IMG/VR virus record: IMGVR_UViG_3300024054_000001
Span: 1-51,543 of that record
DNA: 51,543 bases
Reading direction: 5' to 3' (one strand)
DNA from: a virus
Below are positions 2,830 to 35,849 of the stretch, in pieces; position 1 is the stretch's first letter; the number at the start of each line of letters is the position of its first letter. The notes beneath the pieces were generated by a model, which had not been told where the DNA came from, did no database searches, and saw only the letters and a program-made list of their open reading frames with translations. The position numbers were made by a program, and so were the translations under genes.

Positions 2830-3267
2830 ATGGCTGACCCGAAGCTCCCGATGCACGGCGAGAACGTGCCGGTGACCGTGTTCATCGACAACGTGCCCTA
2901 CCCGCAGGCCGACAACGCGATCTCGATCGAGATCGAGCCCGTGATGAAGGAGCACAACTACGAACTGCTCGGACAGTCGCGTGACGTGCTCGACCAGCAG
3001 CTACGCGGGTGGCGCGGGAAGGTTATGTTCCAGCACACCGACAACGTGCTCTTCAAGGCATGGCTCGTGGTGCAGGAAGCGCGCGAGGCCCGGACGCGGA
3101 TCCCCGAGATCATGATCGCGCCATCGTGGGAGATGCGCGACGGCACGACAGAGACCTGGGCGTTGCAGCGCTGCGAGCTTGTGCCGACGAAGAATGTCGG
3201 AGGCGCGACCGAGGACGCGAAGCTCTCCTGGTCGTTCAAGGCGGTCGACTACGAGCAGGTATTCTAA
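2830..3267 (+). CDS. Tail tube protein
   Basis: The 145-residue product follows the sheath gene, as the tube does in most myophages. The length is normal for gpFII / Mu gpM-type tube proteins. The sequence reads as a compact beta-sandwich: VTVFIDNVPYPQADNAISIEIEPV near the N-terminus, then RGWRGKVMFQHTDN, and a C-terminal KLSWSFKAVDYEQVF. A GAGG element precedes the ATG. Its stop TAA overlaps the next ATG by one base (TAATG), so the chaperone gene is translationally coupled. Confidence 0.85.
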   Translation: MADPKLPMHGENVPVTVFIDNVPYPQADNAISIEIEPVMKEHNYELLGQSRDVLDQQLRGWRGKVMFQHTDNVLFKAWLVVQEAREARTRIPEIMIAPSWEMRDGTTETWALQRCELVPTKNVGGATEDAKLSWSFKAVDYEQVF

Positions 3268-3803
3268 TGGCGGAGTCGATCTACCAGGCCATTCTTCCGA
3301 GCGGTCGCGCCGTGCGTTTCCGCCGGCTGCGGACGCGAGAGATGCTCGCGATTCAGCAACGCGTCGCGGTGCGGCTCGGCAAGCGCGACGATCCCGGCGA
3401 TGGAATCCGCAACGCGATGGGTAGCATCGAGATCATCGCGACGTGCACCATTGCGATCACGACCTCGCGCCCGTGGCTGTTCCTCGTCCCGGAAGCTGTC
3501 GACGCGGCCGCGGACCCGGATCCCGTCGACGCCCTCGAGGCGCTCGCCGCGGTGCCGAGTCGGAGCACGCCGCGTGAGGCGCCGAAGCGCGTCGACGTCG
3601 ATGCGATGCTCGACGCCCTGAAGCCCGAGGACTGGATCCAACTGAGCTACGGCGAGCTGATTCAACGCGACAAGCCGAAGTCGATGGACGATGTGCTCGA
3701 CAATGCCGCGGACTTTCAGCGTTTGCTCGAGCTGATCCAGAACCCCGACGGGCAGCAGGTCGAGGGTCTCCTGGGAAAAGTGCAGGCCGTTTCGTCCGCG
3801 TGA
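3267..3803 (+). CDS. Tail assembly chaperone, short (G-type) product
   Basis: The 178-residue product lies between tube and tape measure, where tail assembly chaperones are encoded. The N-terminus (residues 1-60) has the LPSGRAVRFRRLRTREML pattern common in these proteins, and residues 105-165 are helical. The reading frame carries a canonical -1 slippery heptamer near its 3' end, with zero-frame codons GGA AAA at 3774-3779. A fraction of ribosomes should therefore read on into a longer form (see 3779-3943). The normal product ends seven codons after the slip site. Confidence 0.85.
   Translation: MAESIYQAILPSGRAVRFRRLRTREMLAIQQRVAVRLGKRDDPGDGIRNAMGSIEIIATCTIAITTSRPWLFLVPEAVDAAADPDPVDALEALAAVPSRSTPREAPKRVDVDAMLDALKPEDWIQLSYGELIQRDKPKSMDDVLDNAADFQRLLELIQNPDGQQVEGLLGKVQAVSSA
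3773..3779 (+). promoter_or_regulatory. -1 ribosomal frameshift slippery site G GGA AAA
   Basis: The heptamer GGGAAAA is phased exactly as X XXY YYZ relative to the chaperone frame (codons GGA 3774-3776, AAA 3777-3779). Slipping back one base moves ribosomes into a frame that stays open to 3943. Lambda uses the closely related GGGAAAG for its gpG-gpGT shift. The position is the classical one for tail assembly chaperones, about eight codons before the zero-frame stop. Confidence 0.85.
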
Positions 3804-3943
3804 TCGCCGTTCTCTGTCGATACGGCCATCAGCGCTTGCCGGACCTTCTTGAGATGCAGGTCGACGAACTGCTGATGCTTCACAAGGAGATCCTCGCGAT
3901 CGTCGCGGCGGAGAACAAGACGATCCAACGGCCCGACGACTGA
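3779..3943 (+). CDS. Frameshift extension of the tail assembly chaperone (T part of GT)
   Basis: The -1 frame encodes 54 residues after the slip site, ending with a TGA at 3941-3943 just before the tape measure ATG. The extension reads SAGRFVRVIAVLCRYGHQRL, then a helical LLEMQVDELLMLHKEILAIVAAENK segment, typical of GT-type second parts. The full GT-like product is about 225 residues (171 zero-frame codons plus 54). An internal GTG at 3799 could also start a 47-residue protein, but the slippery site makes frameshifting the better explanation. The family role is to hold the tape measure protein in an assembly-ready state. Confidence 0.82.
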   Translation, partial: SAGRFVRVIAVLCRYGHQRLPDLLEMQVDELLMLHKEILAIVAAENKTIQRPDD

Positions 3944-3946
3944 TCG

Positions 3947-5809
3947 ATGTCCGATACTGTCTACAACGTCCGAACGGTCTACGAGGTCGATGACCGTGGC
4001 GCGGGCGCACGCGTAGGGGGCCTCGGTCGTGCATTCTCGGGGCTCTGGAACACGATCCGAAGCGTCACCGGATCGCTCTTCTCGCTGCGGACGGTTCTCG
4101 GCGGTGCATTCGGCGCCGCGGGCGTCTTCAGTGCGGCCCGCGCGATCACGCGCCTCGGCGGTGAGGCGGAGAGCACGCGGATCGCGATCGCAGGCATGCT
4201 GCAGGCTGGCGGCGCATCCTCGAGCATCGATCGAGCGATGCAGACATCCTCGGACCTCATCGAGCAGATGCGCGTTCAGGCCCGCGCTCTGCCGGGGGAG
4301 TTCCAGGACGTGCTGAATGTCTTCCGTGGCGGCCTCGGCGGCGGACTGGCCGCCGGACAAACCGCGGATCACATCCGCCAAGTGGCTGGGCAGCTGATGG
4401 CTGTCACGCAGGTCCTCGGTGTCGATTCCGAGCAGGCCGGCCGAGACTTTGCGCTCATGCTCGAGGGCCGCGCAGGCGCTCAGGTCGCCACGTTCTCTCG
4501 CTTGCGAGCGCAGATCGGCATGACAGCCGAGGCGTTCAACGCGCTCGCGCCGGCGGAGCGATTCCAGCGGATCGAGCAGGCGATGCGCGGATTCGGTCCC
4601 GCGATCGATCGATACCAGTCGTCGTGGGCGGCGGTCTCGTCGACGACCAGGGACCACCTGACGACGCTCCTACGCACGTCGACGCAGCCGCTCTTCGAGC
4701 GCCTGCGCGACACGCTCGCGCGCGTCAACGAGTGGTTCGAGCGGAACCAGACCCGGGTGCTGGCGTTTGCTTCCTCGATCGGCACGCATCTCGCGTCCGC
4801 GTTCGACCGCATCGTCGGCCTTGCGCAACGCCTCGGGGAGTTTCTCTCCCGTCTGTCGTTCGACCGGCTCCGGTCGTCGCTCACTCAGCTCGGCCCCGGT
4901 CTGCTCGCTCTTCGTGGCGTCGCGGCCCTCGGCCTCGGCGCCGCTGGCGGGGCGATCGCGCTCCCCGTGATCGCCGCGCTCACGAGCGGCGGCCCCGCGG
5001 TGGGCGAGGCGCTGCGTGCGATCGGCGAGGCCAGCCGGCCCCTGGTCACCATGCTCGGCCAGCTCTTCACGGCGACGATGCCACTGGTGACGATGCTGGG
5101 CGTTACGTTGATCGGAGCGATCACGCCGGTCATCGAAATCCTGGGCGGGCTCGGAAGTGCACTGCAGGCCTTCGGTGCGTGGGTTCGGGCGTTGCCAGGG
5201 ATGGAAGGGTTCCTCGCCAATATCCGCGCGGGAATCCAGGAGTTCAACACCGGCGCCGGGCGTTCGGACGTCGCGAACATGGCCGCGGGCGTCGAACGCC
5301 AACGCGAGCATGTCGCGAACGTCGGACGCGTGCAGGACATGCTTCGAGGCGTCCGGGAATCGATGCCGTTCGTTGGGCGCGCGCTGAGCGAAGACAACCG
5401 CACGCGGCTAGCGAATGTTCTCGAGCTGTCGTCCGGCCAGATTGCTGGCAACGAAGCCCTTCGCGGTCGCGTGTCCGCGCTCGCTGCGGTGATGTCGATG
5501 GCCCGCGGTCGTGCCGGCGTCCGTGGGGGCGTCGAGTCGATGGCGGGGCTGCTCAACACTGCCGTCGGGCAGTTGCCTTCGAGGGTCTTCAGCGGAGCGG
5601 ACATCAACATCAGCGGCGACCGAACGCAACCCACGCCGAACGTCGTCGCAGGCAGGGGAAACGTGCACGTGAGTGTCCGCGTCGAGCAGACGATCGAGAA
5701 CGCGAACGACCCGGATCGGGTGCTCATCGCGACGCGCCAGGGCGTGCTCGATGCGCTGATGCATCCGCTCGAGTCGGCGGGGCTCCTCGTCGGCTCCGAT
5801 CTGCGATGA
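3947..5809 (+). CDS. Tape measure protein
   Basis: This 620-residue protein sets tail length and is extruded during DNA entry. Residues 20-75 are glycine-rich with a hydrophobic stretch (VLGGAFGAAGVFSAARAI). Further hydrophobic segments lie in the middle (GVAALGLGAAGGAIALPVIAA and the PLVTMLG repeats). Long helices with few Cys are typical of the family. At about 1.5 angstrom per residue, the length predicts a short tail of roughly 90 nm (inference). It follows the chaperone frameshift gene and overlaps the hub gene as ATGA. I see no peptidase or lysozyme motif inside it. Confidence 0.88.
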   Translation: MSDTVYNVRTVYEVDDRGAGARVGGLGRAFSGLWNTIRSVTGSLFSLRTVLGGAFGAAGVFSAARAITRLGGEAESTRIAIAGMLQAGGASSSIDRAMQTSSDLIEQMRVQARALPGEFQDVLNVFRGGLGGGLAAGQTADHIRQVAGQLMAVTQVLGVDSEQAGRDFALMLEGRAGAQVATFSRLRAQIGMTAEAFNALAPAERFQRIEQAMRGFGPAIDRYQSSWAAVSSTTRDHLTTLLRTSTQPLFERLRDTLARVNEWFERNQTRVLAFASSIGTHLASAFDRIVGLAQRLGEFLSRLSFDRLRSSLTQLGPGLLALRGVAALGLGAAGGAIALPVIAALTSGGPAVGEALRAIGEASRPLVTMLGQLFTATMPLVTMLGVTLIGAITPVIEILGGLGSALQAFGAWVRALPGMEGFLANIRAGIQEFNTGAGRSDVANMAAGVERQREHVANVGRVQDMLRGVRESMPFVGRALSEDNRTRLANVLELSSGQIAGNEALRGRVSALAAVMSMARGRAGVRGGVESMAGLLNTAVGQLPSRVFSGADINISGDRTQPTPNVVAGRGNVHVSVRVEQTIENANDPDRVLIATRQGVLDALMHPLESAGLLVGSDLR

Positions 5810-7098
5810 CCGACGTATTCTACCCGCGAGCACTGGTGCAACTGCACGCGCGAGTGCTCGGCCAGGATGTGACCACGTCGATCGAGCCGCACCGGGTGTC
5901 GCTCACACGCCGGCCACACAACCAGGCCGACGAGGTCGAGGTCGAGATTCACGGGACGGCGCTGCCGTTCGAACCACGTCACATCGAGGACCTCTGGCTC
6001 GGCGTGTTCCTCGGAGATCCCCGGTCGATGTCTGGGCGCGTCGACACGGATCGCTTCCTGCGGTTCGTGGGCTACGCGGACGACATGGAACCGGGCAATC
6101 CGGCCGCCGAGGCGCCGCGCGTGAAGATCACGGCGCGTGATCGCAGCGCCCAACTGCGCGACTTCAAGCCGCTACCCGTCGCAGCGCAGCCCCGTTACGG
6201 CGACATGCTCGGGCAGGCGATCGAGCGCATCCTTGCAGCGGTGCCGTCGGCCGTCGGCATGGAGCTGCGCTCAAGCGAACACGCATCGATTCCGCTCGCG
6301 CCGCTGGTATCGGCCCGGGCACGTGCCGGACGTATCCCGCTGCCGAACGACTGCACGGCCTGGCAGGCCATCGAGCACGTCTGCGGCCTATGCGCTCGCG
6401 AGGTCACCATCGACCTCGAGGACGTCGTCATCCAGGTGCCCACGGCAGCCCGGTCGAGCCCCTCGGAGGCGGCGGCGAACTTCGTCTTCGGTGGCGTCCG
6501 CGGAAACCTGCTCGAGGCGAAGCGGAAGAAGAAGTTCCAGCGCAACCGCAACGGCGTGCGGGTCGTCTCGTTCGATCCGGCGACGCGACGACGCGTCGAG
6601 GCCGTCTACCCGCCCGACGGTCAGCTCCCGAGACGACATCGCGCGCGAGGACGTCGCGGCGGCGGCGGAGCACAGCCGCCGGAGCGCGACATCTTCGCCC
6701 TCGGCGACGGCATCACGTCGCACGATCAGCTCGAGGAGTACGCCCGACGCATCTACCTCGAGCGGTCGAGGCAGGAGGTCGAGGTCGAGATCGAGTGTCC
6801 GTTCCCGACGGACCAGCACATCGGTCTGCGCAACGGCGACCGCGTCTCGATCGAGATCGAGCCCGGCCTCGCCGACGACATTCGCGGCAGCGGCACGGGC
6901 GCTGTCGCGCTGCTCGAGCGGCGGCTCGGCGTCGACCGCGAAGTCGCGCAGATCCTGGTTCGCTCGGCGCGCGAGCCCACCACGAACCTCTTCTACGCGA
7001 AGACGATCACGACCGAGTTCTCGGCCACCGAGAAGACCGTCGTGAAGATCGACGCGATCAATCTGATTCTCGCCATCGACGACCGTCAAGCCGCATGA
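5806..7098 (+). CDS. Baseplate hub protein (gpD / Mu gp44-like)
   Basis: This 430-residue protein lies between tape measure and spike, the gpD/gp44 slot (T4 gp27-like). It opens with YPRALVQLHARVLGQDVT, a strand-rich start, followed by VSLTRRPHNQADEVEVEI, the common domain-1 pattern. It later has TAWQAIEHVCGLCAREVTI, typical of the middle domain of these hubs. A basic, Gly-rich loop (about residues 265-295) may be flexible. The ATG at 5806 overlaps the previous stop, which rules out the much longer upstream reading in this frame. Confidence 0.82.
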   Translation: MTDVFYPRALVQLHARVLGQDVTTSIEPHRVSLTRRPHNQADEVEVEIHGTALPFEPRHIEDLWLGVFLGDPRSMSGRVDTDRFLRFVGYADDMEPGNPAAEAPRVKITARDRSAQLRDFKPLPVAAQPRYGDMLGQAIERILAAVPSAVGMELRSSEHASIPLAPLVSARARAGRIPLPNDCTAWQAIEHVCGLCAREVTIDLEDVVIQVPTAARSSPSEAAANFVFGGVRGNLLEAKRKKKFQRNRNGVRVVSFDPATRRRVEAVYPPDGQLPRRHRARGRRGGGGAQPPERDIFALGDGITSHDQLEEYARRIYLERSRQEVEVEIECPFPTDQHIGLRNGDRVSIEIEPGLADDIRGSGTGAVALLERRLGVDREVAQILVRSAREPTTNLFYAKTITTEFSATEKTVVKIDAINLILAIDDRQAA

Positions 7099-7730
7099 GC
7101 CGTCCCGGACGATCCGCCCTCCGCGAGGTCCTGACGGGACCCGTGCTGCGCGCGATCGCGGGTATCCGTGACGCTGGCGAGCTGCTCCTCGCAGCGGTGC
7201 GGAACATCGACGGCGGCGACCACGTCGACGACCAGGGCAGCGCGGACATCTGGGTGCACTACGAGGACAGCCTCACCGGTGCGCCCGGGATCGCCCGGCT
7301 GTTCGTGCCCGGGAACATCCTGTTCGCGCTCCCCGACGCGGACGACACTGTCATGGTCGCGCGCGGACGCGATGCCGGCGGGCCTGGTGTGCCGTACTTG
7401 CTTCACGGCGACGCCGGCGACGCATCCCGCGTCCCCACGTGGCTTCGAAGCGCCGTCGGCCTGTTCACGAAGAAGCTCCTGCGGCTCGAGTCGAAGGAGG
7501 ACGACGTCGTCGTCGTCGCGGGCTCCGGCAAGTACGTCAAGCTCGGGCTGAACGCTACGCAGTTCGTTGCACTCGCGAATCTGGTCGACGCCCGGCTCTC
7601 CGCCATCGTCACGGCGTTCAACGCGCACGTTCATACGGGCGTCACGACGGGTCCCGGCTCCACCGGCACGACTGCGACGCCTCTCGGGGCGCAGGCCACC
7701 GTTGCGGCGACCGTCGGGAAGGCCGAGTGA
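7095..7730 (+). CDS. Baseplate spike protein (gpV / Mu gp45-like)
   Basis: This 211-residue protein matches the membrane-piercing spike family. An OB-like N-terminal region is followed by a beta-helical stretch (KLLRLESKEDDVVVVAGSG). Near the C-terminus is FNAHVHTGVTTGPGSTG. The H-x-H pair there is the motif that binds iron at the spike tip in P2 gpV and related proteins. Its order after the hub is standard. It overlaps both neighbours as ATGA or TGATG. Confidence 0.85.
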   Translation: MSRPGRSALREVLTGPVLRAIAGIRDAGELLLAAVRNIDGGDHVDDQGSADIWVHYEDSLTGAPGIARLFVPGNILFALPDADDTVMVARGRDAGGPGVPYLLHGDAGDASRVPTWLRSAVGLFTKKLLRLESKEDDVVVVAGSGKYVKLGLNATQFVALANLVDARLSAIVTAFNAHVHTGVTTGPGSTGTTATPLGAQATVAATVGKAE

Positions 7731-8758
7731 TGCCAGCCCCGTTCGTCATCGAGGAGCACGAGGTCCCCGACGCGATCCGTGTCGAGTTGGCGGGCGTCGA
7801 CCTGCCCTACGGGAGCGAGGGCGGCCCCGCGGCATTCGAGATGGGCGGCGATCTCGTCCGTGATCGCATCGACCTCCCCGGCCGCCCTCGGCCCATCCTG
7901 CACATTCTCGTCGCCCCCGATCGCCCGCTGAGCATTCGCGGCGCGTTCAAGGATTGGCTCCATGCTCGAGCAGGGTACGCGCGCGAGAAGCGCGACCAAC
8001 TGCTCGAGATCTACCGACGGGCGAACGTCCTCGCGCTGAGCTGGGACGGAGACGCCTGGCTGGGCGTGCTCGACAAGCCGAAGTTCGGTGTCGAGAGCGC
8101 CGGGTCGATCACGTACGAGCTGCAGTTCGAGATCCTCGAGACGTACGGCGTCCCATCGATCCCGGCCGCGGCGACGCCCTCGGCGCCGACGTCGGGGGCA
8201 ATGGCGGCGTTGCGAGCCACCGTCGAAGCCCGACGTGCCCGGATCGCCGCGCAACGCCTGCGGCGTGCCACGCGGCAGGCCATTCTGACGGCGCTCGATC
8301 TCGCCACGAACGCTGCGTCGCGCGTCGAGGATGCGATCCGCGTCGTCGAGGGCATGGCCGGCACGGCGCTCCAGCGCTTCGGCTCCGGGCTCCGGCGCGT
8401 GATCTCGACCGCACGCATCGCCCAGGACCTCGTTGGCGCCGCGCGGTCTCTCATCCGCACGGCCGTCGCCCAGACCGAGGTGACGGTGCGGACGGCGGCC
8501 GCGATCGGCTCGTGGTGGACCGAGCAGGCCGCAGTCGACATCGATCTGCTCTCGCTCCTCGACGGTCTGCGCTCGGTCCGTGCGGCCGCGCGCGCACGCC
8601 TGCGGGCCTCGACGCGACTGTACCAGGTGCGCCCGGGCGACACGCTCGAGTCGATCGCCCGTCAGCAACTGGGCGACGCATCTCGTGCGTCCGAGTTGGG
8701 CGTGCGGTCGGATCAACTCACTCCAGGCCGGCTTCTGCGATTGCCGGCGGCGGCATGA
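7730..8758 (+). CDS. LysM-containing baseplate/tail protein
   Basis: This 342-residue protein ends with a LysM domain (about residues 297-340): YQVRPGDTLESIARQQLGD, then RLLRLP. The N-terminal 140 residues form a beta-rich domain (DLPGRPRPILHILVAPDRPLS and SITYELQFEIL) resembling the N-terminal part of phage LysM proteins near the hub. The middle (residues 165-270) is a long Ala/Arg helix. T4 gp53 and many myophage proteins carry LysM at this stage of the baseplate, where it helps bind peptidoglycan or stabilise hub-wedge contacts. The exact homologue is not settled. Confidence 0.72.
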   Translation: MPAPFVIEEHEVPDAIRVELAGVDLPYGSEGGPAAFEMGGDLVRDRIDLPGRPRPILHILVAPDRPLSIRGAFKDWLHARAGYAREKRDQLLEIYRRANVLALSWDGDAWLGVLDKPKFGVESAGSITYELQFEILETYGVPSIPAAATPSAPTSGAMAALRATVEARRARIAAQRLRRATRQAILTALDLATNAASRVEDAIRVVEGMAGTALQRFGSGLRRVISTARIAQDLVGAARSLIRTAVAQTEVTVRTAAAIGSWWTEQAAVDIDLLSLLDGLRSVRAAARARLRASTRLYQVRPGDTLESIARQQLGDASRASELGVRSDQLTPGRLLRLPAAA

Positions 8759-8761
8759 TCC

Positions 8762-9442
8762 ATGGCTGCGTGGCTCCAGGCATACGCTCGGTCCGCGCTG
8801 CGGGTCTCCGCGCTGTTCGATGCGACGTTCGCCGGCATGGCGACCGCGTCAACATACGCGATCTCCCGGCAGGACCTCGCGGGAACGACCGTGGTCGTCT
8901 CCCGGGCGTGGAACACCGACACGCTCGCGGTCGAGTTGGCCCTCTCGGAGCCGCTCGTCGAGGGCATCGCATACGTCCTGACGGCGTCAGGGGTCACGGG
9001 ATCTGCCGTCGCGGTGCACCAGGCCGTCGCCGTGCAGGTCATCGGCCCGGACGTCGACGATGCCGATGATCCGGAGGCCGAGGCCTTCGGCGACGACATC
9101 GACTGGCTCGGCGCACAGCTTGGACCCGACGGCGACGCGCCTCGGCTTCGAGGGCTCGAATGCCTCCGGCGTGACCTGGTCGCTCGTGCACTCACGCGAC
9201 GAGGCGAACTCTTCCATCGTCCGACGGTCGGCGCCGGACTCACGATGAGGGTCAACGGTCCGAACACCGATGCGGAGCTGGCCGAGTTGTCGGCGGCTTT
9301 GAAGCGCGAGTGGGCGGATGACGACCGCGTGCGCGGCGTCGCAGTCCAGTCCACGGCCTCGACGAGTGGCGCCGTCACGGCCGATGCGCAGGTGCGCACG
9401 ATCGCGCTCGAGGATCCCATCCAGGTCGTGGTGCGAAGGTGA
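8762..9442 (+). CDS. Baseplate wedge protein with gp25/gpW-like C-terminal domain
   Basis: This 226-residue protein joins two parts. Residues 1-105 look like an immunoglobulin-type beta domain (TTVVVSRAWNTDTLAVEL and EGIAYVLTASG). Residues 108-225 read as a gp25/gpW lysozyme-like wedge domain: DIDWLG, then GLECLRRDLVARALTRRGELFHRPTVGAGL, the usual location of the family's conserved RR/L-T-x-x-G-E motif. It directly precedes gpJ, as gpW does in P2. The Ig-like extension is unusual for this small wedge protein. Confidence 0.72.
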   Translation: MAAWLQAYARSALRVSALFDATFAGMATASTYAISRQDLAGTTVVVSRAWNTDTLAVELALSEPLVEGIAYVLTASGVTGSAVAVHQAVAVQVIGPDVDDADDPEAEAFGDDIDWLGAQLGPDGDAPRLRGLECLRRDLVARALTRRGELFHRPTVGAGLTMRVNGPNTDAELAELSAALKREWADDDRVRGVAVQSTASTSGAVTADAQVRTIALEDPIQVVVRR

Positions 9443-13106: not shown

Positions 13107-13868
13107 TCACCGACAGGGGACCAACCCCATCGAGTTGAAGCACGAGCACGCGCGTCCCGATGGGCTGCAAACCATGCAGGTCGGAGCAGTGATCGAGGCG
13201 TAGAGGAAGATGCGCCAGGTTCCGACGCGCATGTCGACGCCCGGATAGATGCAGGCGGCGACCGAATCGCCGACCAGCAACCCCAGGCGCATCGCGTCGG
13301 CAAAGCAGTTGTAGTGCTCCGGGCTCGGACTCATCGGGGGCGGAAACGTCGGCTCGCGAGGGTTGTTGTCCGCGAAGCCGTCGCAGTCGTCGTCGACGCC
13401 GTCGCACCGCTCGAGCGGGTAGCCCGGTCGACGGAGTCGGTTCGAATCGTCGCAGTCGTCGGCGTTGTCGACCGTCCCGTCGGGGCACGCTGCGCCGCAC
13501 ACGACCATCACGGGTCGCGTGCGATCGCCGAACGTGTCGCGGTCGCTGTCCTGGTAGCAGGTGCGTTCGCATCGGTCCGACGGAACGTCGCCGGCGTCGG
13601 CACGGTGGCAGAACCCATCGGCGCCGCAGGTCTCGCCCGCGAAGCACGGTGGCGAGCACCGATACGCGCCGTCGGGGTACCGCCAGGCCTCATCGACGAC
13701 GTCGGTAGCGTCGAGTGGCGTCGGCGTGTCGGTCGACGCGTCGACGACGTCGACGTTCGCGTCCGTCGCGATCTCGACGCTCGCGTCGTTCGTCGTCACG
13801 TCCGTCGCTCCCGTCGTGCCGCAGCCACCGGCTGCGCAGGCAGCTACGAGGCCCCAGATGATTCGCAT
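13107..13868 (-). CDS. MopE-type Asp/Cys-repeat lipoprotein (moron)
   Basis: This 253-residue protein is the only minus-strand gene in the structural region. It begins with a short positive, hydrophobic leader ending in A-G-G-C, a plausible lipobox (Cys16). An Asp/Thr-rich linker follows (residues 22-58). Two Cys-rich units come next: CSPPCFAGETCGADGFCH, and a MopE-style calcium/metal-binding repeat, YQDSDRDTFGD then DDCDDSN and ERCDGVDDDCDG. Proteins of this kind are abundant in Myxococcota outer-membrane and surface lipoproteins. It is not needed for virion assembly and is probably expressed from its own promoter, perhaps in lysogens. A cargo role in surface modification is inference. Confidence 0.8.
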   Translation of the reverse strand: MRIIWGLVAACAAGGCGTTGATDVTTNDASVEIATDANVDVVDASTDTPTPLDATDVVDEAWRYPDGAYRCSPPCFAGETCGADGFCHRADAGDVPSDRCERTCYQDSDRDTFGDRTRPVMVVCGAACPDGTVDNADDCDDSNRLRRPGYPLERCDGVDDDCDGFADNNPREPTFPPPMSPSPEHYNCFADAMRLGLLVGDSVAACIYPGVDMRVGTWRIFLYASITAPTCMVCSPSGRACSCFNSMGLVPCR

Positions 13869-26020: not shown

Positions 26021-26492
26021 CGGAACGCCTCGATCGCGAAACGCGTCCATCTCGCCGGGCGCGCTGGTACTCTGCCGAGAGGCCCGCATCCCCCAGCATC
26101 CGCATCACGCTCGCCGGGCCTGCGAGCCCGAGCGTCTGAGCCGCGCGAGTAAGATTCCACGCGTGATGCTCGAGCACGGCGCGCAGAACGCTGGCTCGCA
26201 GGACTCTTGAAACACCGTCGCTCCATCGGCTGACGAAGCTTGCGCCGACGGGCGGCCGCAGAACGCGTTTGCGGTGACCGCCGACCACGATCACGCCAGA
26301 GCGACGTGCCGCAAGGTATTCGCTCTTCAGACCGAGGATCGTGATCTCCCGGAGCACGCCTGCCGCGCCCGAGAGTTTCAGGAGTTCGGCGGCGTGCGTG
26401 AGATTCCATTCGGTCGCGATGAGGACGTCGAGCAGCATCGCCCTGCGAAGCTCCCTGTGCGCGTCGTTCGAGATCTGGATGAGCGGGAACAT
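26007..26492 (-). CDS. Protein with two Fis-type HTH repeats
   Basis: This 161-residue protein contains two copies of the same helical unit: LDVLIATEWNLTHAAELLKL and LRAVLEHHAWNLTRAAQTLGL. Each is followed by a G-A/P-x-x-V-h-R-x-h-x-x-h-G-L segment and a SEY/AEY ending. Each looks like the Fis/NtrC helix-turn-helix in which W-N-x-T-x-A-A-x-x-L is the key phrase. An internal duplication is clear. It starts at ATG 26492, overlapping the ParB-like stop by 1 nt. It is probably a DNA-binding regulator. Confidence 0.65.
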   Translation of the reverse strand: MFPLIQISNDAHRELRRAMLLDVLIATEWNLTHAAELLKLSGAAGVLREITILGLKSEYLAARRSGVIVVGGHRKRVLRPPVGASFVSRWSDGVSRVLRASVLRAVLEHHAWNLTRAAQTLGLAGPASVMRMLGDAGLSAEYQRARRDGRVSRSRRSDGRL

Positions 26493-28219
26493 CACTCCGC
26501 CTCGCCCTCGCACGCCGAGCACACATCGGCTGCGATCCACGAACACGCTTCCCCCTGCTTGGACACGCACGGCGTCGTGTCGGTGCACCCGCAATAGCCG
26601 CACGTGCGGACTTTCGCCGTCTTCGCCGCAGTCGGCTTCTTCGTGGTCTTGTTCGCCGGCGGCTTCGGCTTCTTCTTCGCGGCCGCCTTGGACTTCGCCT
26701 CGTCGGCGACCTGCTTGCGCGCCTCATCGAGCTTCACGCCGAACAGCGCGCACGCCGCGCCGAACGCGCTCCCGTTGTTGGCCTTCGCGGAATTCCACGG
26801 GCCTGCCTTGCGCGAGATCGCCAGCTCGAGCACGAGTGCCCGCAGCTCGCCGCCCTTGAGCCGCTGCAACTCGGCGTTGAGCGCCTTCTCCGCCGGGTCG
26901 CGCTGGTAGCCCTTCGCCTTCGGGATCTCGATCGCACGCCGCCGGCAGACTTCCTTGTGCGTGTCGTTCCAGCTCGTCTCGAGGATCCCCTGGCCGAGCA
27001 CTCGCCAGAACGCGTCGGAGGGCTCGCGCTTCTCGCACGCGCGGACGATGCCGGCGAGCGCGATCGAGAGTGCCAGGTTCTCCGCCCGAGCCTTCTGCTG
27101 CCGGCGCTTCTGGTCGTCGGCGAAGGTGTTGGCCTTGTTCTTCGGCAGCAGCTTGTTCGCGTCGGTCTGCCTGACCAACTCGTGCACGCGGCCGCTCGAG
27201 TCGCGCGCGATCGTCACGGGCGGCAGCTGCCCCTTGAGGATCTGCCGGTACGTGCGCCGCTTGTTGTCGGCGTAGTCGGTCTGGTCCAGGTCGAGGAACC
27301 CGGACCTGCTCTCGAGTGACGAACTGTACGGGAAAGCCTTCTTCGCCTCCGCGTCGGAGAGTACCTTGAGACCCTTCGCGCGCGCCGCGTCCGCCTTCTT
27401 CGCCCACGCCGCGTCGCGCTTCGCGCCGAAGCACGCCGGATCGGTGCACGTGTCGGGGCTCTTCACGTCAGCGAACAGCTCGGCCTGGTTGCCCGTGCGC
27501 TTCGGGCACGTGGTGCACGCCCCAGCCTTCGGCACGAGCGTCCCGTCACCGCGGTCGAACGGAGCGTCTTTCAACCCGAGCAGGAAGCCCCTGTCGAGCA
27601 TCCGCCGCACCAGCCAGGTCGCTGGCGGGGTGACCGTGTCCCCGTCGACGTCGGTTTCCTCCTCGATCGCATCGAGCAGCCGCTGCTGCAGCTCGGGCGT
27701 CGGTAGGCGCGCGACCATCAACGCCGTCGCCGGCGTCAGCCACCCCTCGTAGAACGCCTTGCGCGCGGGCTTGGACAGCGCGCAGAGCTTCATCCGCGCG
27801 TAGACCGTCGACGGCGCCTTGCCGACCTTCGCCGCGATCTCCTCGACCGACAGGCGGTGCTTCGTGTGCAGGACCTCGTAGCCTTCGGCCTCCTCGAGCG
27901 GGTGGATCTCGATGCGCTTCGAGTTCTCCACGAGTTGCATCTCGAGAGCTTCCTGATCGGAGAGCTTCCGGACGGTCGCGAGCAGCGACTTCAGTCCTGC
28001 CACCTGCGCCGCCCGAAACCGGCAATGGCCGAACACGATCTCGTAGCCCTCGCCCGACACGGGCTCGAGACGCACGAGGATTGGCTGCAACTGCCCGTGC
28101 TGTTTCAGGTCGGCCGCAAGCTCGGCGATCGCGGCCGCGGGGAACGTCTTGCGTGGATTGAAGGGCGACTCGACCAGCGCGGTGAGCGGGATCTCTTGGT
28201 ACGGCGACGGTGCAGTCAT
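26492..28219 (-). CDS. ParB/Spo0J-family protein with C-terminal Cys cluster
   Basis: This 575-residue protein starts with a ParB N-terminal domain: IPLTALVESPFNPRKTF, then a helix, and GHCRFRAAQVAGL (the G-x-R/C-R-x-R-A CTP-binding box). A KorB-type HTH region follows (RLSVEEIAAKVGKAPSTVYARMKL, residues about 130-160). The middle is long and includes a Cys cluster (CTTCPKRTG...CTDPACFGAK, about residues 230-260). The C-terminus has Lys-rich linkers and a final CGYCGCTDTTPC...C...CSAC zinc-like knot. No ParA is encoded here, so a plasmid-partition role is doubtful. Similar solitary phage ParB-like proteins act in regulation or as nucleases. Call is sure at family level only. Confidence 0.8.
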   Translation of the reverse strand: MTAPSPYQEIPLTALVESPFNPRKTFPAAAIAELAADLKQHGQLQPILVRLEPVSGEGYEIVFGHCRFRAAQVAGLKSLLATVRKLSDQEALEMQLVENSKRIEIHPLEEAEGYEVLHTKHRLSVEEIAAKVGKAPSTVYARMKLCALSKPARKAFYEGWLTPATALMVARLPTPELQQRLLDAIEEETDVDGDTVTPPATWLVRRMLDRGFLLGLKDAPFDRGDGTLVPKAGACTTCPKRTGNQAELFADVKSPDTCTDPACFGAKRDAAWAKKADAARAKGLKVLSDAEAKKAFPYSSSLESRSGFLDLDQTDYADNKRRTYRQILKGQLPPVTIARDSSGRVHELVRQTDANKLLPKNKANTFADDQKRRQQKARAENLALSIALAGIVRACEKREPSDAFWRVLGQGILETSWNDTHKEVCRRRAIEIPKAKGYQRDPAEKALNAELQRLKGGELRALVLELAISRKAGPWNSAKANNGSAFGAACALFGVKLDEARKQVADEAKSKAAAKKKPKPPANKTTKKPTAAKTAKVRTCGYCGCTDTTPCVSKQGEACSWIAADVCSACEGEAE

Positions 28220-28563
28220 GGTGTCCTCGTTGCCGGCGGCGCCGGCGGCTGAATGGAGTGGGCTCGCAGTTCGCGCCGCATCGCGATCTGCATCGCGCGC
28301 TCGAGCACTGGGCCGGCGTCGAGGCCGAAGAAGTCGAGCACGTCGACCAGCTGCAGCACCGCCAGGCCGGCGATCTGCGTGCGCTGCTCGACGGTGGCGT
28401 TCGGCCCCTGGAAGATCGTCGTGGCGATGAGCTGCCCGACCTCGACGGACTTGATCGCGGCGCAGGCGGCATGCGTGCATGCCTGGCCGGTCGACCGATG
28501 CTGCCGAAGCAGTTCGGCGAGCGTGATCTCGACAGGGACGGCAACGAGGGCGTCGACGCTCAT
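28216..28563 (-). CDS. Small early protein
   Basis: This 115-residue protein (MSVDALVAVPVEITLAELL start) is helical with hydrophobic stretches (IAGLAVLQLVDVLDFFGLDAGPVLERA). No family is recognised. It overlaps the ParB-like and coiled-coil genes by 4 nt each. Confidence 0.52.
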   Translation of the reverse strand: MSVDALVAVPVEITLAELLRQHRSTGQACTHAACAAIKSVEVGQLIATTIFQGPNATVEQRTQIAGLAVLQLVDVLDFFGLDAGPVLERAMQIAMRRELRAHSIQPPAPPATRTP

Positions 28564-29309
28564 GTCGCGGCCCCGCTGGCGACGTCGCCCTTCGGCGCCA
28601 CGGCGTGCACGGTGCACTCGAGCCCGAAGCGCTTCGCCATGTTCATGAGCGACTTGGCGTTCAGCCAGGCCATCGGGTTGCTCTCGATGTACGCCTCGCC
28701 GCCGCCGGCGGCCCAGTAGAACGGGTACTGCGTGAGCTTCGAGCGCTTCGCCTGCGGCAGCGCTTCCCACTGCTCGCGCGGCACGTGCAGCACCACCGTC
28801 GTGCTGTTCGGGAGCTTCGCACCTCGCTTCTTTTTCTCCGCCGGCGCCGGGTCTCCGGCCGCGCCTTCCTGTTCGACGACGTCGTCGTCGGCATCCTCGT
28901 CCTCGGTCTCTTCTCCCGCCGTCACGGCCATGTCGGCGACGACGGGCTGCCCGGCGAGGTCGAGTTCGCCTTGGCGCTCCTCGATCGTCATCGCGCGTTC
29001 GCTCACCACCTCGCCCGTGTCGAGCCGGACCATCTCGATCCGGTTGCCCGTGTCGATGCGCCGTTCGACGACTGGCACTTCGCGCTCCTCGGTGCCCGAG
29101 GCGATCGCGCGCCGCAGCTGCGCGATCTCGGCATCGATCTGCTCGAGCTGCTCCTTGTACTCGGAGGCCTTCTCCTTGCGCTCGTCGTCGACCCGCTCTC
29201 GCTTGTCCATCTTGCCGGCGAGTCGGCCGCCGCGCTCGAGCAGTTCGTCCGTCGTCAGCCTGCACGCGAGCAAGCGTTTCTTGTGTCCCTCGTCCATCAC
29301 AGTCATCAC
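28560..29309 (-). CDS. Coiled-coil protein with acidic linker
   Basis: This 249-residue protein starts with a long coiled coil (residues 15-75, KMDKRERVDDERKEKASEYKEQLEQIDAEIAQLRRAI). It continues with an acidic low-complexity linker (EETEDEDADDD) and ends with a small folded domain (YPFYWAAGGGEAYIESNPMAWLNAKSLMNMAKRFGL). It sits between the exonuclease and the ParB-like gene in the recombination part of the operon. Role is unknown. Confidence 0.58.
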   Translation of the reverse strand: MMTVMDEGHKKRLLACRLTTDELLERGGRLAGKMDKRERVDDERKEKASEYKEQLEQIDAEIAQLRRAIASGTEEREVPVVERRIDTGNRIEMVRLDTGEVVSERAMTIEERQGELDLAGQPVVADMAVTAGEETEDEDADDDVVEQEGAAGDPAPAEKKKRGAKLPNSTTVVLHVPREQWEALPQAKRSKLTQYPFYWAAGGGEAYIESNPMAWLNAKSLMNMAKRFGLECTVHAVAPKGDVASGAAT

Positions 29310-29977
29310 AGTCCTCCCTTCGGATCCATCAACCGGGCTTCAGGCCGGAGGCGTTCGAACAGCGGCCGCAGCACGGCGACATCGCGCGCGCAGTACTCCG
29401 CGATCTCGACGAGGCGCTCCTCGCGCCAGAGCTGCTCGACCTGGTTGCCGGCGACGCCGGCGGCCTTCGGCGACTCGATCCCGACCGACCGGCACATGCA
29501 GTCGAGCGACACGCGCCGCGTGTTCCCGAACGCCGTGACCACTTCGAGCAGATCGCAGTGCTCCGCGAAGCTGTACCGGTAGGGCAGCAGGTTCCGGGTC
29601 GGCGGAACGTTCGCGATGATCGATCGCGTTCGCAGGAACGGCGCGTCGAAGCCCCGGCTGTTCCACCCGATGATCCGGCGGTAGCGAGCAGCGATCGACC
29701 ACCAGCGCTCGAGCAGCGCCCTCTCGTCGCCCACCCACTCGATGAGGCTGTTCGTCGCCTCCACCGGCTGCCGCGCTGCCACGATCACGCGCACGAAGCC
29801 CTGCTCTTCCGCCCAGCCGATGCAGGCGACGCGGCCGGCGAACGGTGAGAGGGCCGCAGTGTCGGCCGTCGCGATCGCGGGGCTCCCGTTGCTGAGGTAT
29901 GCCCGACGCTCGTCGTCGAGCGCGTCCCAGACCGACACGGTCTCGACGTCGAAGAACAGGTTCTCCGGGCGGATCAC
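29306..29977 (-). CDS. 3'-5' exonuclease, DEDDy type
   Basis: This 223-residue protein shows the three exonuclease motifs: FDVET (Asp10/Glu12), GWNSRGFDAPFL (Asp in motif II), and YCARDV (Tyr-x3-Asp, motif III). That places it in the predicted 3'-5' exonuclease family related to the PolB proofreading domain. The start is GTG at 29977, overlapping the Bet stop as GTGA. It is next to Bet, so it probably acts in phage recombination or end-processing, although most Bet/RecT partners are 5'-3' exonucleases. Confidence 0.82.
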   Translation of the reverse strand: MIRPENLFFDVETVSVWDALDDERRAYLSNGSPAIATADTAALSPFAGRVACIGWAEEQGFVRVIVAARQPVEATNSLIEWVGDERALLERWWSIAARYRRIIGWNSRGFDAPFLRTRSIIANVPPTRNLLPYRYSFAEHCDLLEVVTAFGNTRRVSLDCMCRSVGIESPKAAGVAGNQVEQLWREERLVEIAEYCARDVAVLRPLFERLRPEARLMDPKGGL

Positions 29978-31110
29978 TGCGCACCGCCCTTCGTCGCGCG
30001 CTCGCCCTTGCGCGAGGCCCGTTGCTCGGCGTGCTTCGCGATGTCTCGGTCGATCGCGTCCTGCAACTCGTTGTGCTGCACCTCGTCGACCAGCCCGCGC
30101 TCGAGGGCGTCGGCGACGGCGCCGCGCAGTTCCTCGAGGTCCACGGGCTTGGTCGCCTTCACGAGCCCATCGCGCAACGCCTGCAGCGCGCCCGCCCGGT
30201 CCTCGTCTGTGATCGGCTTCGGCTCGGCCGGCGCCGGCGGATCGCTGTCGGTCGCGCCGGGCCCAGCCTCCTGCTCGGTCGGCGGATCGCCAGGGCGATC
30301 GCTCAATCCCCATGCAGCGTTCTCGCCCGCGGCTTCAGTCGCCGGCTCTGCCTTCGCGCGCAGCGCGTCGTATCGCGCCTTGATCGCGCGCCGGGCGGCC
30401 GCCTTCTCGGGCTGCGACAGGTCGGCCTCCTCGAGGTCACGCCGGAGGGCCTGCAGCAGGTCGAGGGAGTTCGCGCTCGATGCCGCTTCGAGCATGTGCA
30501 CGAGTGCCGGGCTCTGGGCGTTCGACGGCTTCGCCTTCGTCGCCGGCGCCGGCGTGGGCTTTGCCTCGAGGACCTCCGCGACGGGAAGCTCGTCCGTCGT
30601 GTAGAGGTCGCCGCAGTCTTGCGGGAACGCCTTCCGGATGCCGAGGGCCTCGGCACACTTCGCCAGCATCAGCAGGGGCTTCTCGGCCCACATGCGCGTC
30701 AGCCGGTCGCCCTTGTACTGGGCGTACTCGTCCCAGTGCGCGATCCCTACGAAGGGCCGGGAGATGTCGCGGCGGTAGACGCGGACCTTGCAGCAGATCA
30801 CCTGCTGTCGACGGTCGTACTCGTACTCGGGCTCGTCCTGGCCGGCGTACAGGCCCGTCCGTTCGGCGATCGCCCGCAAGCCATCGATACCGACTTGGAC
30901 CGTCCAGCGCACGCCGCCGTCTTGGTCGCGTCGCGAGACGAAGTGGCACTGCCCGAGGAACGGGTCGAGCTGCCGCCGCTCGGCGACCGAGATCAACGCG
31001 AGGAACTCTTCCTCGGATGCCCGCGGCGCGTAGATGCGCCGAATCAGAGTCTTCTGGTCCTGCGTGAACACGGGCACGGTCGTCGACCGTGCGATCTGCT
31101 GCTGCTCCAT
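29974..31110 (-). CDS. bet: Bet-type single-strand annealing protein
   Basis: This 378-residue protein matches the lambda Bet / RecT-like annealing family. Seen signatures are TLIRRIYAPRASEEEFLALI, RRQLDPFLGQCHFVSRRDQDGG, TVQVGIDGLRAIAERTGLYAGQDEP, YRRDISRPFVGIAHWDEYAQY, and MWAEKPLLMLAKCAEALGIRKAFPQDCGDLYTTDEL. The family pairs complementary single strands in phage recombination. Residues 185-378 are an unusually long, charged C-terminal extension. GGAG and AGGGAC elements precede the ATG. It is followed at once by the exonuclease gene. Confidence 0.9.
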   Translation of the reverse strand: MEQQQIARSTTVPVFTQDQKTLIRRIYAPRASEEEFLALISVAERRQLDPFLGQCHFVSRRDQDGGVRWTVQVGIDGLRAIAERTGLYAGQDEPEYEYDRRQQVICCKVRVYRRDISRPFVGIAHWDEYAQYKGDRLTRMWAEKPLLMLAKCAEALGIRKAFPQDCGDLYTTDELPVAEVLEAKPTPAPATKAKPSNAQSPALVHMLEAASSANSLDLLQALRRDLEEADLSQPEKAAARRAIKARYDALRAKAEPATEAAGENAAWGLSDRPGDPPTEQEAGPGATDSDPPAPAEPKPITDEDRAGALQALRDGLVKATKPVDLEELRGAVADALERGLVDEVQHNELQDAIDRDIAKHAEQRASRKGERATKGGAQ

Positions 31111-31131
31111 CGTTGTCCCTCCGTCGTTGAT

Positions 31132-31350
31132 TCAGTTCGGTGCCCAGACCCACCGTTCGCGCCCGTCGTCGGCGCGCTCGAGCCGAAAACCCGCGGCGCG
31201 CAGCGCGTGCCTGCAGATCGCGCTCAGCCGGGGCGAGACGACGACCAGCCACGCCGGCCGTCGGCCGATCACGCACCCGCGCACGCCCGCGCGCTCGACG
31301 TCGAATGCCACCGCGGCCGCGGCCCACACGTGCGGCGGGAACGTGCTCAT
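31132..31350 (-). CDS. Small early protein
   Basis: This 72-residue protein (MSTFPPHVWAAAAVAFDVER) has no recognised family. It overlaps the upstream gene by 4 nt and ends 22 nt before the Bet ATG. Confidence 0.5.
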   Translation of the reverse strand: MSTFPPHVWAAAAVAFDVERAGVRGCVIGRRPAWLVVVSPRLSAICRHALRAAGFRLERADDGRERWVWAPN

Positions 31351-31604
31351 CGCACAGCACTCGCCTGCTCGAGGCGCCGAAGTGGTGCCCGGTCGAGATG
31401 CTGCGCCCGGGGGGATGACGCAGGTTCGACCGACCGGGCACCACTTCGAAGCCCGAAGCAACGATTCAATGCATCGCGGACGACGGCGACGCAAACCACG
31501 CGCGCCCGCGTCGTGCCACATCGAGGGCACTCCGCGAACTCCAGCGCCTCGTCGATGAACCACCCGACCCGGGCCAGGTTCGGCAGCGTGGGCCATTCGA
31601 TCAC
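31347..31604 (-). CDS. Small protein carrying a long inverted repeat in its gene
   Basis: This 85-residue protein starts with GTG at 31604, overlapping the upstream stop (GTGA). It has a CPRCG pair in its first half (LEFAECPRCGTTRARVV). Its C-terminal 30 residues are encoded by a region containing an 18-bp perfect inverted repeat (31378-31395 and 31431-31448). Function is unknown. Confidence 0.5.
   Translation of the reverse strand: MIEWPTLPNLARVGWFIDEALEFAECPRCGTTRARVVCVAVVRDALNRCFGLRSGARSVEPASSPRAQHLDRAPLRRLEQASAVR
31378..31448. repeat. Perfect 18-bp inverted repeat
   Basis: The arm CGAAGTGGTGCCCGGTCG (31378-31395) is the exact reverse complement of 31431-31448. The arms are separated by a 35-nt loop. 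In RNA this would be a very stable hairpin inside the coding region of the 85-residue protein. It may be a transcription/translation control element or the trace of an inserted repeat. Confidence 0.9.
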
Positions 31605-31909
31605 GTGCCCGCCGGCGGCGAGGCAGGCGTCGACGGCGGTGCCGATCCGGCAAGGCGCATCGCCCGCTTCCGCCCCGCCGGCGTGAGCGCCCAGCGCGCT
31701 CCCTCGCGTTCCAGCAGCAGCTTCGCGAGCAGGCCCCTCGCCCCGAAGCACTTCGAGTCCACCTTGATCGCCGACGGCAGCGCGTAGCCCGTCAACCCGA
31801 ACGCCTCCGGGAACTTTCGCCACGCCGCGACGACCAGGTCCTCGCGCGTGAACGTTGGCGGCAGATCCAGCGCCGCAATCAAGATCAGGTCCCGGTGCGG
31901 CCATGTCAC
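31601..31909 (-). CDS. Small early protein with winged-helix-like core
   Basis: This 102-residue protein starts with GTG at 31909 (overlap GTGA). The sequence TFTREDLVVAAWRKFPEAFGL, then DSKCFGARGLLAKLLLEREGARWALTPAGRKRA, resembles a small winged-helix domain of the MarR/phage type. Function is unknown. Confidence 0.55.
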   Translation of the reverse strand: MTWPHRDLILIAALDLPPTFTREDLVVAAWRKFPEAFGLTGYALPSAIKVDSKCFGARGLLAKLLLEREGARWALTPAGRKRAMRLAGSAPPSTPASPPAGT

Positions 31910-32253
31910 GCCTCGCTCCGGGTGAAGATCGACCGCACGTGATCCCACCACTCCGGGTGCTGCTCGAGCCAGCTCGCGATGTCCGGGGGAGTTGTGCTCG
32001 CCAGCGCGTACCAGGTGTCCAACTCGATCTGGTCGACGCCCAGCGCAGTCGCGAGGTGCGCCAGCGGAACCCTCGTCGTCGCGTGCCGCCCCGCCTCGAC
32101 GTCCTCGAGGTCGCGCTCCATCCCGCACCACGACCGCCCCTGCTCGCGCAGTCGCGCGGCCAACTGCCGAACGCTCAGGCCCGCCAGCGCCCTGCGCTGC
32201 CCGATCAGCCGCCCGAGTTGGATCATCCGCGCATCGCGCTCCGCCGAACTCAC
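31906..32253 (-). CDS. XRE-family HTH regulator
   Basis: This 115-residue protein starts with GTG at 32253. Residues 10-70 read as a lambda-repressor-type HTH: LGRLIGQRRALAGLSVRQLAARL, then a turn and MERDLEDVEAGRHATTRVPLAHLATALGV. The C-terminal part is a short helical domain (DIASWLEQHPEWWDHV). It is the second gene of the leftward operon, so it may fine-tune early transcription. Confidence 0.72.
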   Translation of the reverse strand: MSSAERDARMIQLGRLIGQRRALAGLSVRQLAARLREQGRSWCGMERDLEDVEAGRHATTRVPLAHLATALGVDQIELDTWYALASTTPPDIASWLEQHPEWWDHVRSIFTRSEA

Positions 32254-32531
32254 GACACGACCTCGGGGTCGACGATCAGCTCGGCCGCGTAGCCTCGCTG
32301 CGCCATCTCGCACTGCAACTCCTGCGCGAAAGCGCCCACGTGCTGGGCAGCGCAACGGAGCGTCAGCGTCAGCGAAGCACCAGCTGCCCGGATCTCGTCC
32401 CGCCCGATCCGGAGCGCCACAGCGCGCAATGACTCGATCAACGCGTCCTCCGCCGCGTCGAAGTTCTCCTCCGCCGAAGCCTCCCACCGCAGCCTGATCA
32501 CCCCCGTGCCCTGCGTCACCGTCACGTCCAT
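32250..32531 (-). CDS. First protein of the leftward operon
   Basis: This 93-residue protein starts at ATG 32531, directly at the expected start of transcription from the PL-like promoter (7 nt after the -10 box), so the message is probably leaderless. A TTG at 32567 is the -35 box, not a start. The protein is mixed (MDVTVTQGTGVIRLRWEASAEE start), with a long helical middle. No family is recognised. It could be an early regulator by position. Confidence 0.62.
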   Translation of the reverse strand: MDVTVTQGTGVIRLRWEASAEENFDAAEDALIESLRAVALRIGRDEIRAAGASLTLTLRCAAQHVGAFAQELQCEMAQRGYAAELIVDPEVVS

Positions 32532-32567
32532 GGCGACACTTGTACTCGTGGGTACAAGCGTCGTCAA
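32532..32567 (-). promoter_or_regulatory. PL-like leftward promoter, leaderless
   Basis: On the minus strand: TTGACG (32567-32562), 17-nt spacer, TACAAG (32544-32539), 7 nt TGTCGCC, then ATG at 32531. The transcript should begin at or next to the A of the ATG. The spacer and -10 hold a perfect palindrome. The arrangement is shared base for base in its key elements with the rightward promoter at 35511. Confidence 0.82.
32539..32558. promoter_or_regulatory. Operator palindrome CTTGTAC-N6-GTACAAG
   Basis: Two 7-bp arms, CTTGTAC (32539-32545) and GTACAAG (32552-32558), are perfectly inverted with a 6-bp gap. The palindrome spans the spacer and -10 of the leftward promoter, where a bound repressor would block RNA polymerase. 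The PR-like promoter holds one perfect and one weak half-site. Confidence 0.8.
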
Positions 32568-32692
32568 TAGGAGTCACACGGAATTCGTCGACAGCCCGGT
32601 GAGCTCCTCGGCGGCTCGCCCGGACGGGCGATTCCCTGTCGGGCGCTCTCGGGAGACGATCGAACCGTCGGATCACCGATCGGAGAAGAGGG

Positions 32693-33007
32693 ATGGCGAC
32701 GGAGTTCGAAATCGTTCGGGATCATCTGCACTACATCGAGCGATCGCAGCGGCGCCTGGTCACGCTTGCCCTCGTCGCCATGCTTTTGGCGGTCGGAGCG
32801 ATCGCTTGGCACTTTCTCGCGCCGGCAGAGGCCCAGCGGGTGCGCTGGGAATATCGGATCGAGTTCTTCCTCGAAGGCGCGGTGGCGACGGGACTCAACA
32901 CCGCCGGCGAAAGCGGATGGGAAGTCGTCGACGTGCGTCGCGCGCGAACGGGTTCGGGAGAATCCGGCGAGTGGGGCAGCGAAGTCGTATTCAGGCGGCG
33001 CCGGTGA
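32693..33007 (+). CDS. Membrane-anchored DUF4177-like protein
   Basis: This 104-residue protein has one transmembrane segment (residues 22-42, LVTLALVAMLLAVGAIAWHFL) and an outer domain RWEYRIEFFLEGAVATGLNTAGESGWEVVDV. That matches the DUF4177 pattern (aromatic strand, LN-x-x-G-x-x-GWE). A GGAGAAGAGGG ribosome site lies just upstream. It is read to the right inside the immunity region, against the repressor operon, and is probably expressed in lysogens or as a moron. Function is unknown. Confidence 0.62.
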   Translation: MATEFEIVRDHLHYIERSQRRLVTLALVAMLLAVGAIAWHFLAPAEAQRVRWEYRIEFFLEGAVATGLNTAGESGWEVVDVRRARTGSGESGEWGSEVVFRRRR

Positions 33008-33038
33008 GCGTCAGCCGGCGATGCCGCAGGAGAGACGA

Positions 33039-33260
33039 ATGATTTCAGGACACGTGCGATTCATTCTGGCAACGATCTTCGCGACGCTCCTCGCGGTGCT
33101 GTCGTCCGTCCCGGAAGCATCGGCATCCGAGCGGGATGCGTCCGGCGATGGCGGCAGCGAGTCACGTGTCGAGAAGACACGCCGCGTGCGGGTGCGGGGC
33201 TACACCCGGCGCAACGGGACCTACGTTCGGCCGTACACTCGCCGCGTGCGCCGGCGCTGA
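33039..33260 (+). CDS. Small secreted basic protein
   Basis: This 73-residue protein has a clear signal peptide (residues 1-30, HVRFILATIFATLLAVLSSVPEASA) and a very basic tail containing RGYTRRNGTYVRPYTRR. That motif is found near the ends of several bacterial periplasmic proteins. AGGAGA lies 7 nt before the ATG. It follows the DUF4177-like gene and may share its transcript. Role is unknown. Confidence 0.58.
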   Translation: MISGHVRFILATIFATLLAVLSSVPEASASERDASGDGGSESRVEKTRRVRVRGYTRRNGTYVRPYTRRVRRR

Positions 33261-33265
33261 CTTGC

Positions 33266-33838: not shown

Positions 33839-33921
33839 CGCCCGAGAGTACGGACGGACGTGGTCGGTGTGGAGCGCGGGTCGCGGTCCCGGGGTGCGCG
33901 AAAACACCGGGCGGCGAGGGG

Positions 33922-33939
33922 TGTGGATACGTATCCACA
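33922..33939. promoter_or_regulatory. 18-bp perfect palindrome (DnaA-box-like halves)
   Basis: TGTGGATACGTATCCACA is perfectly self-complementary. Each 9-bp half matches the DnaA box TTATCCACA at 8 of 9 bases. It lies in a 146-bp noncoding stretch between the small membrane protein gene and the ImmA gene. It may be an operator for ImmA or a DnaA/replication-related site. Confidence 0.78.
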
Positions 33940-33984
33940 GGCAGAGCGTAGCGCGGGCGAGGGGTTGGGCGGGGACAGGGAATG

Positions 33985-34194
33985 TCAGGGCAATTCGCGA
34001 TGCTTCCGGCGCTGCCTAAGATCGTCAACATCGTGCAGGAAATCCCAACCGATGATCGCCGTTACGAGCAGCGCTCCGACGGCGAGGGTCGAGCCGAACC
34101 ACACAGGCCGAATCCAATGCCGTCCGATGACCATCGCCGAGCTCAGAAGCATGCCGTAGACGAGCACCCACGCTGGCGTTCGAAGGTTCTTCAT
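33985..34194 (-). CDS. Small two-TM membrane protein
   Basis: This 69-residue protein has two hydrophobic segments (PAWVLVYGMLLSSAMVIG and STLAVGALLVTAIIGWDFL). It overlaps the previous gene by 4 nt and is translated after the repressor and a larger membrane protein, so it is likely made in lysogens. A superinfection-exclusion role is possible but not shown. Confidence 0.58.
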   Translation of the reverse strand: MKNLRTPAWVLVYGMLLSSAMVIGRHWIRPVWFGSTLAVGALLVTAIIGWDFLHDVDDLRQRRKHRELP

Positions 34195-35846: not shown

Positions 35847-35849
35847 TCG

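Follow-up and report, generated by a model that had tools for sequence, protein, structure and literature searches.

A putative programmed −1 ribosomal frameshift in the proposed tail assembly chaperone gene of a family of contractile-tailed phages

The defining features of tail assembly chaperones made by frameshifting have been described for phage lambda, in which the chaperone binds the tape measure protein, its extension binds the tube protein, and neither stays in the virion (PMC5009743). The heptamer GGGAAAA was reported for phages TM4 and Bush, and for Bush it was described as a −1 site in the tail assembly chaperone gene (PMC4626039, PMC11749239). Frameshifting of 6% and 7% was given for two tail chaperone genes (PMC3711429), and a predictor was trained on tail chaperone frameshift genes (PMC10885494). 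Neither the mechanism nor this kind of gene is new, and the heptamer itself has been described before; the novelty lies in the family. No account of this tail family was found in the literature, and such searches cannot show absence.

The stretch of DNA analysed here, referred to as the window, is a linear virus record of 51.5 kb (51,543 nucleotides). Its tail genes stand in the order sheath, tube, E and tape measure (Table 1), E occupying the place of G and T in lambda and of E and E′ in P2. The proposed tube, located by its position and its counterpart in the relative L172, gave no match in Pfam or PHROGs. Further PHROGs matches in the window were observed for baseplate proteins (8762, 9446), portal, TerL and the major head protein. 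From this arrangement and the evidence below, we conclude that the ORF at 3267-3803 very probably encodes a tail assembly chaperone of the lambda G/P2 E kind, extended by programmed −1 ribosomal frameshifting.

Table 1. Locations of the tail genes and of the features around the putative frameshift (window positions unless a relative is named)
Feature	Location	Strand	Basis
Tail sheath protein, 487 aa	1321..2784	+	PHROG 279, E 3.3e-10; homologs in relatives
Proposed tail tube, 145 aa	2830..3267	+	position after sheath; 21% identical counterpart in L172
Zero-frame ORF E, proposed tail assembly chaperone (short product), 178 aa	3267..3803	+	homologs at same place in relatives; flanked by tube and tape measure
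Slip site G GGA AAA, X XXY YYZ phase	3773..3779	+	same site and phase in 8/20 readable loci; other X XXY YYZ in 7/20
−1-frame extension E′, 54 aa and stop	3779..3943	+	conserved RYG core at 3818; helical model, pLDDT 86.8
GTGA overlap, at which a GTG on the E stop might independently start the −1 ORF	3800..3803	+	weak SD, −2.5 kcal/mol
Tape measure protein, 620 aa, proposed chaperone partner	3947..5809	+	PHROG 305, E 1.1e-8; homologs in relatives
SD-like sequences upstream of G GGG GAA	L175 about 4495-4525; L197 about 3530-3562		

The codons from the slip site onward read CTG GGA AAA GTG CAG GCC GTT TCG TCC GCG TGA. The original prediction had placed GGGAAAA in the correct frame, eight codons before the stop, and both points were confirmed: the heptamer matches the X XXY YYZ phase of the ORF, and seven sense codons separate it from the TGA at 3801-3803, which is the eighth. 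Read from the slip onward, the −1 frame has 54 open codons (SAGRFVRVIAVLCRYGHQ...RPDD) up to a stop at 3941-3943, shortly ahead of the tape measure ATG at 3947, as had also been predicted. The −1 translation from the slip site to 3943 is SAGRFVRVIAVLCRYGHQRLPDLLEMQVDELLMLHKEILAIVAAENKTIQRPDD, and the predicted E-E′ fusion is 225 aa long, versus 178 aa for E alone. The peptide KSAGR, with which the original prediction would have detected the fusion, is awkward for mass spectrometry, as trypsin cleaves exactly at the slip lysine and leaves SAGR, which is too short.

Neither the heptamer nor the open frame of the window is significant when taken alone. GGGAAAA occurs twice in the whole window versus 1.10 expected, and two or more copies were found in 34 of 100 shuffles; the second copy, at 38126-38132, does not form an in-frame slip site within any of 33 likely genes that were listed by hand. 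Among these 33 genes, only two in-frame X XXY YYZ sequences (Y = A/T) were present, and the one at 3773-3779 was the sole example near a 3′ end. An open stretch of 54 codons would be unremarkable at 68.7% GC. It is the conservation in divergent relatives, and not the window by itself, that makes the frameshift call significant. The other in-frame sequence, GGGAAAC at 5656-5662, has 48 codons of the tape measure gene still to follow, and from it the −1 frame continues for 478 codons and passes into the frame of the downstream gene (5806-7098). A slip there would fuse the tape measure with the next tail protein; the sequence is probably there by chance.

Relatives were collected by alignment rather than by single queries. 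With the window E, sheath or J as a single query, only one other contig was detected, IMGVR_UViG_3300044996_000727, and it was dropped as a comparator because it is identical to the window over the E region and thus uninformative. The proposed tube detected no relative among genome contigs, and among 50,697 phage records no isolate phage matched the window E, the window sheath, the E of L180 or the sheath of L197. An alignment of TerL led to an 85-kb contig carrying the tail region L172, with a tape measure match of 32%; its E ends with LMGKVQPVSMV, versus LLGKVQAVSSA in the window, and has GGGAAAA in the same phase. More contigs were obtained with alignments of two tape measures, two sheaths and then five sheaths. 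The sample thus defined comprised 21 further distinct IMG/VR contigs with the tail module, or 22 with the window, and 20 of these had a readable E region; L208 ends before the gene end, and E was not assigned in L217. Excluded before counting were L178 and L179 (E same as in L177), L189, L205 and L214 (contig ends before E), loci repeating the same contigs, and the identical twin of the window.

An in-frame X XXY YYZ sequence in E, followed by a −1 extension of 54-92 aa, was observed in 15 of the 20 readable loci, the window included. GGGAAAA was found in eight (window, L172, L176, L177, L180, L181, L186 and L188), AAAAAAG in two (L212 and L215), and GGGAAAG (L210), GGGGGGA (L184), TTTTTTG (L190), AAAAAAA (L209) and AAAAAAC (L213) in one each. 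Three more loci carry a near-slippery site, GGGGGAA in L175 and L197 and AAGAAAA in L174; the last gives the best tape-measure match to the window (38%), yet has only A AGA AAA. No slip site was found in L216 or L218. The distance from site to E stop is 5-8 codons in the GGGAAAA group, and the extension there is 54-89 aa long. The sites of L190, L209, L212, L213 and L215, at 23-31 codons before the stop, are less secure; two candidate heptamers are present in each of L209 and L212, and the extensions of L209, L212, L213 and L215 are without the R[YH]G core described below.

The eight GGGAAAA loci represent about four lineages, namely L172, L176, L177 and L180 (52-91% E identity), L181 and L186 (46%), the window, and L188, with E identity of 23-33% between lineages. 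Given local codon usage, a Gly-Lys pair would by chance be written G GGA AAA with a probability of 0.002-0.064 per locus; multiplied over one locus per lineage (window, L172, L186 and L188), this comes to about 1e-8.

The extension was then compared as a protein. The R[YH]G core is common to all 14 aligned extensions, and a GLS..YW-like stretch precedes it in most of them, being absent in that form from the window, L210, L174 and L190. After the E stop, substitutions fall at third positions of the −1 frame in 22 of 32 cases for L176/L177, 31 of 58 for L176/L180 and 28 of 54 for L177/L180. As judged from these comparisons of sequence, E′ is a coding extension. Its structure was modelled as a confident helical domain, for which no significant match was found in PDB or BFVD. 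No ATG, GTG or TTG is present between the slip site and the core in 7 of the 14 core-bearing loci. An independent start of the usual kind is thus excluded as the source of the extension in those seven, where the domain could be made only by frameshifting or from an unusual start codon.

This last observation bears directly on the possibility that the frameshift is not functional and that the −1 ORF is instead a small gene of its own, with termination-reinitiation at the GTGA overlap starting its translation at GTG 3800. The GTG overlaps the E stop and could start a 47-residue E′; overlapping gene junctions are used elsewhere in the window phage, for example at 3267 and 5806, and some of its other gene starts have an SD as weak as that at GTG 3800 or weaker. 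Some start codon does precede the core in the other seven of the 14 core-bearing loci, and the distant relative L218 has such a GTG-overlap arrangement. Nevertheless, the start in L181, L188 and L197 would lose the shared GLS..YW stretch, and the repeated in-frame slip heptamers would be left unexplained; together with the seven loci lacking any start, this makes a separate gene very improbable. Compatible with frameshifting is a combined situation, in which the fusion is made by the slip and a free E′ is additionally made from GTG 3800. Both elements are present together in the window, whose E′ is short and begins close to the core; the weakness of the SD and the absence of such a start in half of the relatives examined make the additional product unlikely, if less so than a separate gene without frameshifting. 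In L218 (at 7490-7500), the small −1-frame ORF apparently has its own GTG overlapping the stop and there is no slip site, and a frameshift-free arrangement is possible in this relative.

The change of frame might also come from slippage of transcription on the A run, and not of the ribosome. Slippage on A runs is known in other systems, but the run in the window is of four A only, and the relatives with GGGGGGA and GGGGGAA retain both phase and extension; we regard this as highly improbable. That an unremarkable heptamer in a GC-rich gene merely meets a randomly open −1 frame would agree with the count of GGGAAAA in the window (2 vs 1.1 expected). It is already contradicted by the relatives, in which site, phase and extension are conserved across wide divergence, and it can practically be dismissed. 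Programmed −1 frameshifting that extends the chaperone, as originally proposed, is thus supported as the best explanation by the gene order, the sites of the relatives, the −1-frame domain and the loci without a start. Weighing against it are the loci without a canonical site (L216, L218 and L174), the GTG at the E stop of the window and, as described below, the inconspicuous downstream RNA, the ordinary upstream signal of the window and the lack of a chaperone match in Pfam or PHROGs.

Signals that might stimulate the slip were also examined. No convincing downstream RNA structure was found: none of 12 sequences stood out against shuffles (best z −1.56, L172), and when 17 sites were ranked against the in-frame positions of their own tail regions, three (L172, L197 and L212) fell in the best 2%. 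Upstream, an SD-like sequence beat 90% of in-frame positions at 9 of 17 sites; part of this enrichment may come from common descent and from a conserved Glu-Val motif. The window is not among the nine, its SD-like signal being ordinary (0.28 of 992 in-frame positions). Ahead of the non-canonical G GGG GAA, the SD-like sequence of L175 reaches −12.2 kcal/mol, a strength matched by a fraction of its 1227 in-frame positions that rounds to 0.00; for L197 the fraction was 0.05 of 1363. This pairing of an SD-like sequence with a non-canonical slip site is a correlation only, and L174, also with a non-canonical site, is without such an upstream sequence, which counts against a general rule.

For the assignment of E and E′ to known families, 11 E and 12 E′ members were compared with Pfam and PHROGs, and no match above chance level was observed. 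Alignment by hhalign with P2 E, P2 E′, Mu gp41 and lambda G gave a probability below 1% each, and the E profile detected only chance-level rows among PDB sequences, all ribosomal proteins. By sequence criteria, E and E′ are not filed in any of these named families. The model of E is of low confidence (pLDDT 59.6). The top two VIA-align rows with this model were 2ob9 (HK97 tail assembly chaperone, Z 6.0) and 3klu (YqbN, Z 5.9); they are no more than suggestive, as Z under 8 can reflect a common arrangement. YqbN is encoded in a prophage cluster of tail genes. A plain Foldseek search with the same model returned nothing significant, and given the weakness of the model this does not speak for a new fold.

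Based on these observations, we propose the following scheme. Most ribosomes would read E to the TGA at 3801 and yield the 178-aa product, and a minority would slip back by one base at G GGA AAA, the P-site Gly codon GGA re-pairing on GGG and the A-site Lys codon AAA on AAA, thereby adding the 54-aa −1-frame domain to give the 225-aa fusion. By analogy with lambda, the E part may bind the tape measure protein, the rarer E′ part may recruit tube subunits, and the ratio of E to E-E′ may matter for tail assembly. The actual slippage, its frequency and the chaperone function of E are what we infer. More tentatively, and with some doubt, we suggest that one related tail set has retained the −1 shift through changes of the slip sequence, and that at least two lineages (L175 and L197) use G GGG GAA outside X XXY YYZ, helped by an internal SD-like sequence 8-15 nt upstream. 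If true, an upstream SD-like helper would stand in for a weaker slip site in these two.

Several other features of the contigs were noted. In L172, unlike in the window, the E′ extension and the tape measure gene are separated by a 402-aa gene (7615-8823); its product looks like a baseplate J-type protein as judged by eye, and similar ORFs are found at the same place in L181 and L197. Between the tail genes of the window, a gene on the opposite strand (13107-13868, −) has a product rich in Cys that carries a MopE-type metal-binding motif (PF11617, E 1.8e-7) and, by eye, a lipoprotein-like start. MopE-type Cys-rich proteins are typical of myxobacteria, and this gene is a hint of a myxobacterial host. 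The closest TerL relatives of the window are L012 (57%) and L093 (55%), with portal matches of 48% and 44%; L012 is a contig of an uncultured deltaproteobacterium MAG and L093 a viral contig, and both end before the tail genes. A search with no positive control detected no sheath in the genome holding L012 nor in 183 genomes of its order. The region 26492-40345 of the window encodes a ParB-like protein, RecT, a CI-type HTH, an IrrE-like peptidase domain and DnaB helicase, a gene set pointing to a temperate phage that may persist as a plasmid.

With the present reading, a tail gene which automatic gene callers would miss or cut in two is annotated correctly, and the conserved frameshift in tail genes is extended to a phage family for which the searched collection has no isolate relative. 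Within the family, different slip sites occur naturally at a single conserved position, and they could be used to ask which slip sequences, and which upstream helpers, are sufficient for −1 shifting.

Among the known systems, the actinobacteriophages TM4 and Bush share the heptamer GGGAAAA with the window; these are other phages of other hosts, and they are likened here by description. Mu gp41 (NC_000929), annotated as a tail assembly chaperone, is encoded between the tube and tape measure genes of a phage with a contractile tail, and the window TerL has a relative in the Mu gp28-like TerL of B3, but no similarity was found between the chaperones. In lambda G/GT (NC_001416, 9711-10549), GGGAAAG, the heptamer also present in L210 of the window family, stands in the same phase ahead of the tape measure gene. 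Lambda is a siphophage, however, its T extension is much longer (144 aa), and no similarity was found for G. The P2 pair E/E+E′ (NC_001895, 19430-19857) differs in its slip site, T TTT TTG, and in the size of E (91 aa), and neither E nor E′ has detectable sequence similarity to the window proteins. P2 and the window nevertheless have in common a contractile tail, a slip site in the same phase and a small extension, 57 aa in P2 versus 54 in the window.
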